From contig JAFQCK010000047.1 in the NCBI GenBank assembly GCA_017416465.1, forward strand, positions 1 through 64,000: DNA of 64,000 nucleotides, in the 5' to 3' direction. Source of the stretch: Lachnospiraceae bacterium (GTDB lineage Bacteria > Bacillota > Clostridia > Lachnospirales > Lachnospiraceae). Positions within the stretch are counted from its first letter, which is position 1. The number at the start of each line of letters is the position of its first letter. The notes beneath the pieces are model-generated. The model did no database searches and was not told where the DNA came from. It saw nothing but the letters and a program-made list of their open reading frames with translations. Positions 28,772-34,911 of the stretch are shown in pieces. The translations under genes and the position numbers were made by a program.

Positions 28772-28865
28772 TAATTCACCAGTCCTTTCTTTACTTAACA
28801 AAATAATTAATAAAAATAATTAACAAAAAACTACTTATATTATTTTTACCAACTTCTTTATATTA

Positions 28866-28908
28866 AATTAAAAGCTCGAAAATCATCAAAATTTTCAAGC
28901 TTTTAATT
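28866..28908 (-). terminator. Terminator-like hairpin between fliS and the FliT-like gene
   Basis: Arms AAAAGCTTGAAAAT and ATTTTCGAGCTTTT (one G-U pair) lie 12 bases after the fliS stop, followed by an AT-rich tail. It may attenuate rather than end the operon transcript. Confidence 0.6.
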
Positions 28909-29353: not shown

Positions 29354-31588
29354 TTACATTCCTGTCATTCCCGAAAAATATGAAGACTGTGAATTAAGTG
29401 TAGCTAATGCTTTCTCCATAGCTGTAAACTGTTTTCTGTATTTTTCTTCATAAGCTTCTATTCTTTCTTCCCATTTCTTAATAGTCTTAGTATACTCATT
29501 ATAATCATTCTTCATCTTCTTATCATTATATACTGTATATGCACTACTAAGCGTTGTACCTCTCATCTTACCACTAAGCTTTTCATATACACCTTGAGCA
29601 AGTTGATTAAAGAAACTACATACAGCTTCAGGGTCTGATGCTATAGCAGCTCTAAGCTTATCAATATTACCTGAAGATATATCATCATCTTTATTACCAT
29701 CTACATGATATAATGACTTCTCATTATCTCCTGAAGAGAAATATCCTGCTGTCTTTATTCCAAAACTTGATAATGAATAACTCTTTCCATCAATAACATA
29801 AGATTTCTGAAATGCTGTCTTAATTGCGTCTGATACACCTTGTAATGTACCATCTCTTCTAAGGAGTGAATCTTTAACTTTCTTCTCCCATTTATCTATC
29901 TCATCATCTGTCATTTCCTCTTTTTCTTCATCTATAAGAGGCTCATAACCTTTAGCTGATGGTGCATTATATAACGAATCCATCTCTTTAATAAGTTCAT
30001 TGTATTTATCAAAGAAACCTACTATCATATCATAGATTCCATCAACATCAGTCTCAGTCGTGATAGAGATAGTCTCATCGCCCACTGTTTCTGCATTAGC
30101 AGTAATTGTAAGACCATTAATTTGGAAGTTATTCGTATTAGATGTGAATGTTGCTCCATTTAACTCAATTACAGCATCTTCTCCTACAATTCTTACTGCT
30201 CCATCTCCACCTGTAGATGTTGCACCTACTACACTAACAGCATCCAAATATTCCTGACTGGTCTTATCTGCATTCTTATCATTCACAATATCATATGCCT
30301 TAACATACTTATCTGCATATGCTCTCTGCTCATTATAGAACTCTGTAATTTCTGCTAATAACTCTTCATTTTGTGTAGTAATTTTGGCATTCTCTTCATT
30401 TATGTATGCCGCAAAACCTGCATCATCCGCTAATGCTGCAGAATTTTTATCTATTATCGCCTGATTCTCAGCAATTTTTTCATTATTAGTTTCTTTAGTA
30501 TCATTTAATTCTGTAAGATATCCTTCTTCACTAAATGTACCATTAGTTGATGCAAGATATACTTCTCTCTTAAGCTTTAATTCTTCTAATTCTGCTTTCT
30601 CTTCTTCTGTAGGTTCTTTTATCTCACCAAGTTCCTTGATTCTTGCATCTGCTGCTTCAAGAAGTGCAGATTTTTCTTCAAATGTTTTCCCTGAAACTTC
30701 TGACAACGCACCAAGTTTAACATCTATATCAGCATTTGACTTATTCAATGCTTCATTAGACTTCTCAGCATTTTCTTTAGCACTTGTTAAAGACTGCTTA
30801 ACCTTATCCATAGCTGTCGAATCAGTAATATCATACAAAGCTTTCTTTTTCTTTGTATACTCTGTCTGAATCAAAGAATTAATTTCATCATCTGTTAATG
30901 CTGCTTTCTTTCTTAAATCAGCAACATCTGCCACTGTAGTTGTATTAAGCTTTAAATTCTGTAAAAGTGTATTACCTGCTGCATTGTTAGCTTTCAAAGA
31001 GAAATCTCCTGCTGCGCCACTTTTTTTAGAACTTACAAAGAATCTCTGATTAGCTTCATCAAAACTTGCATTAACTCCTGCTTCTTTTAACTTAACTACA
31101 AACTGATTAATTGTTGTATCTCCATCAACTGTAAAGTTAGTCTCTTTACCATCTACAGTTAATGATAAACTACTTCCATCAGTTATACCAAGTTCAGAAA
31201 GTTTAGTACTTCCTTTTATCTTATCACCTGATGTCGTTTTAACCACACCACCTGTAAGATATCCTGATGTAGCAAGATTCTTAATCTTTAAAGACTGTGT
31301 TCCTGATACTGCATCACTACTTGCAGATACAGTAGCTTTTGAACTAGCCGACTGTGCCTTCTTTACAGAAAATGCACTTGAAAATCTCATTGGAGATAAT
31401 GTCGAACTGTAAAAACCATATATTTTTGAATTCAAATCTTTCCATGCATCCTGAGTCCACTCTAACTTAGTCTGCGCTTTAACATAATTATCTTTCTTAG
31501 CTTTATATCCTGATACAAGCGCAGTTACGATAGAATCAGTATCAAGACCGGAATTCATACCTGATAATGCTACTCTATTACTAGCCAT
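29354..31588 (-). CDS. fliD: Filament cap protein FliD, with a long charged insertion
   Basis: The start MASNRVALSGMNSGLDTDSIVTALV and the C-terminal YEEKYRKQFTAMEKALATLNSQSSYFSGMTGM are typical of FliD. The 744-residue length is above the common 450-600. Residues about 230-440 are an insertion rich in E, K, N and A (SAKENAEKSNEALNKSN, EPTEEEKAELEELK, ENAKITTQNEELLAEITEF) that should form coiled coil. FliD caps the filament tip and places flagellin subunits. It lies downstream of flaG with a structured 190-base gap between them. Confidence 0.92.
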   Translation of the reverse strand: MASNRVALSGMNSGLDTDSIVTALVSGYKAKKDNYVKAQTKLEWTQDAWKDLNSKIYGFYSSTLSPMRFSSAFSVKKAQSASSKATVSASSDAVSGTQSLKIKNLATSGYLTGGVVKTTSGDKIKGSTKLSELGITDGSSLSLTVDGKETNFTVDGDTTINQFVVKLKEAGVNASFDEANQRFFVSSKKSGAAGDFSLKANNAAGNTLLQNLKLNTTTVADVADLRKKAALTDDEINSLIQTEYTKKKKALYDITDSTAMDKVKQSLTSAKENAEKSNEALNKSNADIDVKLGALSEVSGKTFEEKSALLEAADARIKELGEIKEPTEEEKAELEELKLKREVYLASTNGTFSEEGYLTELNDTKETNNEKIAENQAIIDKNSAALADDAGFAAYINEENAKITTQNEELLAEITEFYNEQRAYADKYVKAYDIVNDKNADKTSQEYLDAVSVVGATSTGGDGAVRIVGEDAVIELNGATFTSNTNNFQINGLTITANAETVGDETISITTETDVDGIYDMIVGFFDKYNELIKEMDSLYNAPSAKGYEPLIDEEKEEMTDDEIDKWEKKVKDSLLRRDGTLQGVSDAIKTAFQKSYVIDGKSYSLSSFGIKTAGYFSSGDNEKSLYHVDGNKDDDISSGNIDKLRAAIASDPEAVCSFFNQLAQGVYEKLSGKMRGTTLSSAYTVYNDKKMKNDYNEYTKTIKKWEERIEAYEEKYRKQFTAMEKALATLNSQSSYFSGMTGM

Positions 31589-31634
31589 AATCTTTCCTCC
31601 ATTCCGCAGGCATCATAAATGCCGAAGGAACCGC

Positions 31635-31735
31635 GAGTTGAATTTCAGATTCAGCTCTGCGATAATATCTATTTGTACCACCTGCTGTACAAATAGTCGT
31701 GTTAAAAATAAGGTCATCAGACTTATTTTTAACAC
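31635..31735. repeat. Three-hairpin ladder element, copy 1 (flaG-fliD gap)
   Basis: Three stems stand in order: 9 bp at 31635-31657 (GAGTTGAAT/ATTCAGCTC), 10 bp at 31669-31696 (CTATTTGTAC/GTACAAATAG) and 14 bp at 31699-31735 (GTGTTAAAAATAAG/CTTATTTTTAACAC, loop GTCATCAGA). The same order, spacing and last loop recur at 33003-33098. The 193-base gap holds nothing else I can name. Confidence 0.85.
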
Positions 31736-31781
31736 TGTCCTCCTTCTCTGAATAATTTTACCGTGAAGAATTCATCAATTA

Positions 31782-32204
31782 TTACAATTTCTCATCCACT
31801 AAGAGTCCTGCAAGTTCCCAAACCTTAGCTATCATATCTAATGTCTTTTCCGGTGGAAGCTCTTTAATAACTTCTTTTGAACTCTTATCAACGATTCTAA
31901 TAGTTACTCTGTTAGTTGCTTCATGTACGCCAAACACGCATTCTGTATTACTAAGCTGTTTGTTAATATCACTGATTGCCTGCTTCATTGTCTCTTCAGA
32001 TGGCTGTCTACCGTTCTGATTCTGATTACTGTCTCCCTGTGAGGCATTAGCTCCATTCACTATCCTTGTGTCCATGCTAATATCACTTACTACCTGTGCT
32101 GAACTTGTCTCAGTTGCTACAGGTGCCTCTACCTTTCTGGCCGTCTTTGTCTGTACCGGAGCCTGATATGTTCCTACTGCTCCTGTAATTCCTTCTATTG
32201 CCAT
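31782..32204 (-). CDS. flaG: FlaG family protein
   Basis: The 140-residue protein has a disordered N-terminal half rich in T, Q and S and a conserved C-terminal half: MKQAISDINKQLSNTECVFGVHEATNRVTIRIVDKSSKEVIKELPPEKTLDMIAKVWELAGLLVDEKL. This is the FlaG domain, linked to filament length or export in several species but of poorly defined function. I use the ATG at 32204, with AGGTGG 5-6 bases upstream, over one at 32219. A sigma-28-type promoter lies directly upstream. Confidence 0.85.
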   Translation of the reverse strand: MAIEGITGAVGTYQAPVQTKTARKVEAPVATETSSAQVVSDISMDTRIVNGANASQGDSNQNQNGRQPSEETMKQAISDINKQLSNTECVFGVHEATNRVTIRIVDKSSKEVIKELPPEKTLDMIAKVWELAGLLVDEKL

Positions 32205-32247
32205 ATTTTCCACCTCCATGTGTATTTACATATTTTTTTATACCTTT

Positions 32248-32275
32248 TTATCGGCAATTTTTCTCAAAATGTTTA
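32248..32275 (-). promoter_or_regulatory. Sigma-28-type promoter of the flaG-fliD-fliS run
   Basis: GCCGATAA (32248-32255) and TAAA (32272-32275) are separated by 16 bases, one more than ideal. The site lies between csrA and flaG, giving a short leader of about 35 bases. Confidence 0.75.
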
Positions 32276-32278
32276 TAG

Positions 32279-32497
32279 TTAACCAAGTAAATTCTTAAGT
32301 GCTTCTACATTTTCTAAATTAGTTGCATCTTTATTAGATTCCTGTATCTGTAAGAATACTTCTTTTCTGTATACAGGAACTGATTTTGGTGCTGTAATAC
32401 CAATCTTTACATGGTCACCTTTTACTTCTAAAATTGTAACTTCTATATTATTATTAATAACAATTGCTTCATCTTTTTTTCTTGATAATGCTAACAT
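32279..32497 (-). CDS. csrA: Carbon storage/flagellar translation regulator CsrA
   Basis: The 72-residue protein starts MLALSRKKDEAIVINNNIEVTILEV and contains GDHVKIGITAPKSVPVYRKEVF, the RNA-binding core of CsrA. It represses translation of flagellin by binding GGA motifs in the leader, and two such motifs are present at 26734-26771. Its gene lies 6 bases after fliW, the antagonist, matching the Bacillus arrangement. Confidence 0.95.
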   Translation of the reverse strand: MLALSRKKDEAIVINNNIEVTILEVKGDHVKIGITAPKSVPVYRKEVFLQIQESNKDATNLENVEALKNLLG

Positions 32498-32503
32498 AGT
32501 ATA

Positions 32504-32956
32504 CTACGCTCCTTTCCCAGCCTTAAGAATATCATACACATAGTATTTAACAGGATAATCTTCATTATCCACAATTATCTGGCAACCTTTCATAGTACCC
32601 GAATTAATAACTATAGGTGCTTTTAGGTTCACGCTCATTTTTTCAATATCCGAAGGAACTGTAACTGTAGTAAGCACTAACATTTCTTCCCCTTCAATTT
32701 CACCAATATTTTTAAATAATTCATCCTCTACTATAGGGTCATAATCCTCTTTAAAAAGAAGTGGGTCCGCAACCGGAAATGCTATATCAGTATCATCAAT
32801 TGACTGAAGCCACATAATCTTAGGACTTTCGTCCTCCACATCATGCATAAGCATAAACTGTTTAAGATTATCAAAACCAATCATACCACTGCTAAAATTA
32901 ATGATTTTACTTGTGTCTATGTCTATCTCACCAAAAATTCTTGTTTTAATTGTCAT
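32504..32956 (-). CDS. fliW: Flagellar assembly factor FliW
   Basis: The 150-residue protein begins MTIKTRIFGEIDIDTSKIINFSSGMIGFDNLKQFML and contains IMWLQSIDDTDIAFPVADPLLFKEDYDP, typical of FliW. FliW binds and inhibits CsrA allosterically, and is itself titrated by flagellin. I place the start at 32956, with AGGTGG 6 bases upstream; the open frame extends further only through the hairpin element. It precedes csrA by 6 bases. Confidence 0.93.
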   Translation of the reverse strand: MTIKTRIFGEIDIDTSKIINFSSGMIGFDNLKQFMLMHDVEDESPKIMWLQSIDDTDIAFPVADPLLFKEDYDPIVEDELFKNIGEIEGEEMLVLTTVTVPSDIEKMSVNLKAPIVINSGTMKGCQIIVDNEDYPVKYYVYDILKAGKGA

Positions 32957-33002
32957 AGTTTTCCACCTTTCCTTTCTACCGAAGCTTTTGCGTAGGTACT
33001 GC

Positions 33003-33098
33003 GTGGCAAATCTCAAATTTGCCACTGCAATTATTAGAATTTGTGCTCCGTCACAAATTCTTGTATGAAAAATAAGGTCATCAGACTTATTTTTCATA
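33003..33098. repeat. Three-hairpin ladder element, copy 2 (flgL-fliW gap)
   Basis: Stems in order: 9 bp at 33003-33025 (GTGGCAAAT/ATTTGCCAC), 10 bp at 33036-33061 (AGAATTTGTG/CACAAATTCT) and 13 bp at 33064-33098 (TATGAAAAATAAG/CTTATTTTTCATA, loop GTCATCAGA). The copy is bracketed by the direct repeat TTCTACCGAAGCTT near 32975 and 33109. Confidence 0.85.
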
Positions 33099-33189
33099 TT
33101 GTCCCTTTTCTACCGAAGCTTCCATCTCCATATTTTTAATTTGGCGGGAATAAAAATTCCCGCCTAAACTAATTTTCACATTATAAATC

Positions 33190-34770: not shown

Positions 34771-34911
34771 TTGTATAAAATAGTCGTTCGTGATATCCTT
34801 ATTAACATTTTCCTTGTTTATTGCGTATTGCGCCTTTAGGCGCACAACGGAGTGCTAGCAATAAAAAGGAAAATGTTAATAGGGATTATCACTTCAACTC
34901 ATTTTATACAA
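34771..34911. repeat. Long intergenic palindrome between flgK and flgL
   Basis: Arms of 54 bases (34771-34824 and 34858-34911) pair nearly throughout, with long perfect stretches such as ATTAACATTTTCCTT. The 33-base centre contains GCGCC-TTTA-GGCGC and ends with CAACGGAGTG. The outer arm overlaps the stop codon of the downstream-lying flgK (34904). A related core occurs at 40.4 kb. Confidence 0.85.

Follow-up and report, generated by a model that had tools for sequence, protein, structure and literature searches.

A pseudoknotted repeat found between Shine-Dalgarno-like motifs and start codons of Lachnospiraceae genes, probably a small mobile element

Why does the same ladder of hairpins stand in two gaps of one flagellar operon? 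In the window, the 64,000 nt of contig JAFQCK010000047.1 (Lachnospiraceae bacterium, GCA_017416465.1) analyzed here, the flaG-fliD and flgL-fliW gaps share one such ladder, and both copies were seen in the sequence and by a repeat finder. An earlier note, made from the sequence alone, had described a 9-bp, a 10-bp, and a 13–14-bp stem in the same plus-strand order in both gaps, separated by 11/10 and 2/2 bases; sequence inspection gave the same order and an independent recount the same spacing, with one non-Watson-Crick pair included in the 9-bp stem of copy 1. The outer pairs of the last stem have indeed changed on both sides (GTGTTA/TAACAC versus TATGA/TCATA) beneath an apex common to both copies, and positions 31689–31747 and 33053–33111 form a 59-nt block of 81% identity with perfect outer stems of 14 bp and 13 bp. 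The ladder is not a chance occurrence; with up to three mismatches allowed, a 21-nt core is found at two places in the window and in 0 of 100 dinucleotide shuffles, and the RNA folding z-scores of the two copies are −6.9 and −6.5. The ladder had been counted as three hairpins, and while the three stems stand, the count does not, as a fourth hairpin lies at 31602–31630 and 32977–32998. Because the flagellar genes (Pfam: FlaG, CsrA, FliW, FliD, flagellin domains, and FlgK) are encoded by the minus strand, the element is read on that strand, which makes the AAAATAAG stem the 5′ hairpin; hairpin 1 (AAAAATAAG...CTTATTTTT) thus comes first. The earlier note had given neither strand, fourth hairpin, pseudoknot, nor the position relative to the Shine-Dalgarno (SD) motif and start codon, the last being the most unusual feature of the element.

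In both copies an SD-like motif precedes the element and the start codon of the next gene follows it; all features of the copies given here are on the minus strand. Copy 1 occupies the flaG-fliD junction (31591–31737; covariance model R1, 119.5 bits, E 6.6e-35). Its putative 5′ SD (AAGGAGGA, SD1, 31738–31745) is followed by hairpin 1 with a GTC-TGAT-GAC apex (31699–31735, from the repeat finder and folding), hairpins 2 (31669–31696) and 3 (31633–31660), both from folding, hairpin 4 with a TTCC..GGAA base (31602–31630, from folding and family covariation), and a putative 3′ SD (TGGAGGA, SD2, 31595–31601) before the ATG at 31588 of fliD (29354–31588; Pfam FliD_N and FliD_C). Part of the hairpin 2 loop, GCAGGTG (31679–31685), is complementary, with one G-U pair, to TGCCTGC within hairpin 4 (31606–31612), its pseudoknot partner by family covariation. 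Copy 2 occupies the flgL-fliW junction (32966–33101; 125.6 bits, E 9.3e-37) and shows the same succession: a putative 5′ SD (AAAAGGGA, SD1, 33102–33109), hairpin 1 holding an in-frame ATG (33064–33098, from the repeat finder and folding), hairpin 2 with the loop ACGGAG (33036–33061) and hairpin 3 (33001–33028), both from folding, and hairpin 4 (TACC..GGTA, 32977–32998), whose 3′ strand includes GCTTCG, the pairing partner (one G-U pair) of CGGAGC in hairpin 2, ahead of a putative 3′ SD region (GAAAGGAAAGGTGG, 32963–32976) and the fliW ATG at 32956. Both copies were among the 41 sequences from which the model was built.

A direct repeat, TTCTACCGAAGCTT, had been said to bracket copy 2. It is present at 32974 and 33108, but its occurrence at 32974 takes in the 3′ portion of hairpin 4 and a further three bases, and what lies in the 5′ flank of copy 2 (33108–33121, minus strand) is a likeness of 32974–32987, possibly, judging from the sequence, a remnant of the 3′ end of an older element or a target duplication. 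A 197-aa ORF (32504–33097, minus strand; Pfam FliW at residues 66–186) is fliW in frame with the translated element; its first 47 residues stem from the element and come ahead of the ATG at 32956. Automatic annotation may wrongly extend FliW through copy 2, and read-through of the element can lengthen gene models in this way.

The element is about 140 nt long. Its four hairpins covary, as does the pseudoknot that the loop of hairpin 2 forms with the 3′ strand of hairpin 4. In a MAFFT alignment of 41 full-length copies, the two window copies included, RNAalifold returned 28 pairs, of which 13 showed changes in both partners; once hairpin 4 was included, 95.2% of cells were paired (slid controls 38–49%) and 17 of 33 helix pairs had changed on both sides, which bears out the earlier view that paired changes conserve a structure. 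The pseudoknot had 91.3% of cells paired (slid controls 26–42%) and 28 doubly changed cells, and the base of hairpin 4 had 83.9% paired (slid controls 31–52%). In the pseudoknot, and in hairpin 4 taken by itself, 0 of 500 shuffles reached the cells paired and the covariation score; the number of doubly changed pairs was not above shuffles (94 and 98 of 500, respectively, reached the observed value), nor were the further pair types of hairpin 4 (142 of 500), in controls that related sequences inflate, relatedness being kept in the sliding controls. Complementarity between loop and tail scored 19.9 for 55 of 57 full-length copies of the first set, compared with 15.1 for permuted partners (sd 0.49). 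For model matches that were not part of the alignment (68 of 79), it scored 20.3, and permuted partners 14.9 (sd 0.47, highest 16.1). Within single genomes it was clear in the congener G005 (19.6 versus 15.7, highest permuted 17.8), marginal in G042 and in the element's own genome (G000), and uninformative in G020 because the copies there are alike. Hairpin 4 and the pseudoknot both draw on one 3′ strand. The ratio of G-T to A-C mismatches, which serves as a test for RNA-strand selection, was 18:21 in hairpins 1–3 of the MAFFT alignment but 60:30 in the model-fitted alignment. Inspection by eye revealed no terminal inverted repeats. Hammerhead- or box C-like words in the apex of hairpin 1 were considered but dropped as unsupported.

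The two copies belong to a dispersed family. In the own genome, the 21-nt core with up to three mismatches matched 15 times against 0 for reversed-pattern controls, and 13 of the 15 matches are elements (eight exact, five with one mismatch); at the other two (L014 and L015, three mismatches) the rest of the element is missing. The exact core pattern with one N retrieved 54 further GTDB stretches, titled Lachnospiraceae or unnamed bacteria. A covariance-model search, the check that had been proposed for the ladder, found matches in 15 of 60 genomes of relatives. The counts were at least 53 for G005, 30 for G022, 26 for the own genome, 16 for G020, 14 (of weaker scores) for G032, 13 for G042, which belongs to another family, and 8 for G014; eight more genomes had one to three each. 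These further copies, with their covariation in related genomes, support the earlier suggestion of a structured RNA or a mobile palindromic element. Under stricter filters, four of eight congeners (G002, G003, G007, and G008) gave no match, and in a class-wide sample of 291 genomes, with 11 candidates scored per genome, the own genome alone matched at E 1e-6. Tandem pairs of elements occur in G000, G005, and G022. Among 64 pattern copies, seven are shortened, with no hairpin 3 and hairpin 2 not intact; these (L013, L032, L037, L040, L053, L066, and L074) retain hairpin 1 as well as the SD-bearing 3′ end. At L118:833-953 a stub without hairpin 1 lies ahead of an intact copy. Carriage by phages or plasmids was considered and rejected: three viral-contig matches to the 21-mer share one sequence context and come without the rest of the element; by BLAST, copy 1 had no match in plasmids and copy 2 none in phages.

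The placement of the window copies is that of the family. Among 79 model matches (35 in G005), lying in stretches fetched for the top-scoring or tandem hits, 74 had an SD-like motif, a start codon, and an ORF within 60 nt 3′, as compared with 139 of 1580 random positions (8.8%), and the start codon mostly stood directly at the model end. These 79 come from a list of 104 matches; the copies in the window (two) were set aside, as were 23 rows scoring no more than 27.4 bits, most of them on the opposite strand of copies and three of them viral. Among the five exceptions, L106_1251 and L118_833 each open a tandem, the SD and ATG of L123_3425 come about 80 nt downstream, and at L112 the start codon, at +8, breaks the SD-spacing rule. 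L086 is the only one left unexplained. On the 5′ side, GGAG or GAGG was found in the 14 nt preceding 98 of 120 copies (56 model matches and 64 pattern copies) versus 234 of 4000 random sites (5.9%); the copy-finding model takes in some flank positions. An automatic rule found a downstream SD, start codon, and ORF for 61 of 67 pattern copies, with three of the 67 (L005, L027, and L033) assigned by motif and three (L042, L068, and L071) not judgeable at locus ends or Ns. Orientation is nearly always that of the downstream gene. The downstream proteins are unrelated; Pfam backs fliW and fliD only, and from their sequences we take others to be MurC, MurF, FolC, DnaX, DnaE, ClpX, PrmA, Hsp33, shikimate kinase, TrkA, RecN, and FliS, among others. 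Survivorship could account for part of this site preference.

Homologous sites can lack the element. The element precedes dnaX in G000 and murC, trkA, hslO, and folC in G005, and by eye none of 36 homologous congener sites (dnaX 7, murC 8, trkA 5, hslO 8, and folC 8) held it in the 200 nt upstream. Applied to those 43 loci, the model scored 98–112 bits at the five occupied genes and picked up another G005 copy close to hslO, and it did not exceed 16 bits in the other genomes. Among the trkA homologues, three are just 38–42% identical and may be paralogues. In closer relatives of UBA7196, ten alignments at four loci contained no intact element. L261 has a stub that keeps the 3′ SD with its 5′ SD gone, L262 may hold a 5′ remnant, and L247 (14.5 bits) is perhaps a 3′ remnant. 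At gpsA, sites L276 and L278 hold other sequence, a motif search found no match at L277 and L279, and the model matched none of the four. In two genomes (L041 and L045), what is apparently one DJ-1/PfpI-like gene has an element, with different 5′ flanks and a different hairpin 3, and in a third relative the gene has none; the two copies are possibly independent insertions at one site. Occupied and empty homologous sites together lend support to mobility.

Because copies are many, their distribution patchy, and homologous sites empty, we favor a mobile element: the repeat is probably a small non-autonomous element of about 140 nt that inserts in one orientation just 3′ of a gene's SD and before its start codon. 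A trans-acting mobilizing activity would recognize the folded strand, as single-stranded DNA or RNA, and the choice of target would read the SD motif on the sense strand. The 3′ end would carry or duplicate an SD; because it would thereby supply one, the downstream gene would keep its SD-spacer-ATG arrangement and the insertion would be tolerated even before essential-looking genes. New copies could also insert behind the 3′ SD of an older copy, which would produce tandems and leave 3′ ends behind. In G005, strings common to the 5′ and 3′ SD regions are longer than those of permuted pairs (n = 33, 8.6 versus 6.2, 0 of 500); the sharing is weaker in the own genome (n = 18, p 0.008) and in GTDB copies (n = 51, p 0.004), with no clear excess in a mixed group (n = 18, p 0.10). 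Either target duplication or 3′ ends remaining from earlier elements could explain such strings. At L023 the 3′ SD differs from that of the empty site, and the element therefore seems to have brought it there.

More tentatively, and with rather less confidence than doubt, we propose that the SD itself is the target, found on the sense strand of mRNA or exposed single-stranded DNA through pairing by the hairpin 2 loop and hairpin 4 strands and re-created at the 3′ end, so that any gene, including an essential one, could be invaded without loss, by a mover outside the families tested. If the SD is truly targeted, this would be a novel means by which mobile elements locate safe sites, and a 140-nt pseudoknotted structure in the initiation region of essential-looking genes would constitute a natural experiment on translation initiation.

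The alternative that survives best, although we think it unlikely, is a regulatory RNA in which the hairpin 2 loop and the 5′ strand of hairpin 4 compete for the SD-adjoining 3′ strand, a switch that would control translation of a dispersed regulon in response to some signal. Both alternative pairings of that strand covary and the leader position is constant, and because an ilvB pair (L059/L065), taken from flanks and gene as apparently one site, shows a compensatory C-G/T-A change in hairpin 2, constraint in place is possible. However, the functions of the downstream genes look unrelated, congeners differ in presence at the same genes, and the seven shortened copies have no hairpin 3 and no intact hairpin 2. 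A test for an SD-sequestering switch gave no signal: the predicted accessibility of SD2, from a fold without the pseudoknot, equaled that of shuffled-body controls (n = 126, Wilcoxon p 0.98). Less probable still is an inserter with no target preference, whose surviving copies would be those that leave an SD before a start codon. There is little intergenic space, and an SD-ended element would presumably be best tolerated there, but neutral places, such as the gaps behind genes, should then hold copies too, and 74 of the 79 model copies lie 5′ of a gene start, with L086 alone unexplained. Finally, a translated leader or in-frame N-terminal module, comparable to the RPE-like protein-coding palindromic elements that insert in frame in ORFs, is very improbable: an NTG-AA start stands at the base of hairpin 1 in 104 of 137 copies and copy 2 is open into fliW, but the other 33 are without such a start, hairpin lengths shift the frame, five translations had no Pfam match and three no NCBIfam match, and the element is not a protein module because the frame from hairpin 1 runs into the gene in just 6 of the 137 copies, copy 2 with fliW among the six.

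For the preferred reading of a mobile element, a mover was sought among three families, none of which is common to all many-copy genomes, and this poses a concrete question. Y1 transposase (PF01797) is present in G000, G022, G032, and G042 and weakly in G020, and was rejected as the common mover with 0 matches in G005, which is 99% complete and holds at least 53 copies, and in G014; at the five Y1 loci of the own genome there was no convincing match to the element model (best E 0.29). The IS110 DEDD transposase (PF01548) scored over the curated cut-off in G000, G020, G022, G032, and G042 and below it in G005 and G014, and reverse transcriptase (RVT_1, PF00078) was found in G000, G005, G020, and G032 and not in G014, G022, or G042, so both were likewise rejected. 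Absences from G014 are weak because that genome is just 67% complete. At one locus of the own genome (G000:C151:16507-19527), an element lies directly 5′ of a reverse transcriptase gene (RVT_1, G000:C151:17061-17690).

Small dispersed palindromic elements are common; we know of none, however, that is placed systematically between SD and start codon, in sense orientation, before dozens of unrelated genes, and searches of the open-access literature, several of them many-termed, returned no description of this family. REP/RAYT and IS200/IS605-type elements have strand-specific hairpin ends and insert beside short motifs such as GGAG. The present element resembles them in its strand-specific hairpins and adjoining GGAG-type motif, but G005, the genome richest in copies, has no Y1 transposase, and the Y1 genes of the own genome have no element nearby. 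The pneumococcal BOX, RUP, and SPRITE repeats are described in PMC3049150 as small, folded, dispersed, and less mobile than IS elements, with BOX being modular and able to be transcribed in 5′ leaders; the table there gives 70 BOX upstream of at least one CDS and an over-representation of these repeats between convergently transcribed genes (16 BOX, P 0.0017). As far as that account goes, our element is likewise small, folded, and dispersed but is set apart by its position, between SD and start codon on the strand of the gene (74 of 79 copies are directly 5′ of a same-strand start codon, not between convergent genes), and by its conserved pseudoknot. The TAACTGA repeats of Beggiatoaceae (PMC4679880) are also dispersed at the start codons of genes without common function; they are sets of a 7-nt direct repeat, with an SD also present in only about 10% of regions, whereas our element is folded and lies between two SD-like motifs.

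Rfam returned nothing at gathering score within the window and only sub-threshold matches in the further scanned loci. One likeness considered was to TD-2 RNA (RF03162) of Treponema denticola. In 3 of 10 scanned loci (L062, L047, and L035; reverse strand, 34–37 bits), the three hairpins of TD-2 can be aligned over their full length with hairpins 3-2-1 in reverse complement, with GAGUUU/AAACUC and UGAAAA/UUUUCA words and a 2-nt spacer in common. Its sole match in nine genomes at E 0.1 fell on the reverse strand of an element (G000:C99:3260-3355; 40.6 bits, E 1.7e-4). However, all scores are under the gathering score of 48.7, the strand is the opposite one, and the TD-2 model is without hairpin 4. 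On another element, a microRNA family came out with a comparable E (0.03). Scores of this kind can thus arise from hairpin-rich sequence alone, and we treat the match as a lead only, to a possible Treponema relative and not to membership. A term search of the main text of Weinberg 2010 shows no TD-1 or TD-2. In viral contigs, a search for TD-2-like hairpins yielded 46 stretches, three with an adjoining hairpin by script and none TD-2-like.

The window holds other inverted repeats as well. The flgK-flgL gap contains a 24-nt inverted repeat (34795–34886; 92% complementary, 44 nt between arms), at which the element model had no match, and a palindrome with 18-nt arms (94% complementary) and a 7-nt loop lies at 28866–28908, between ORFs at 28801 and 28921.
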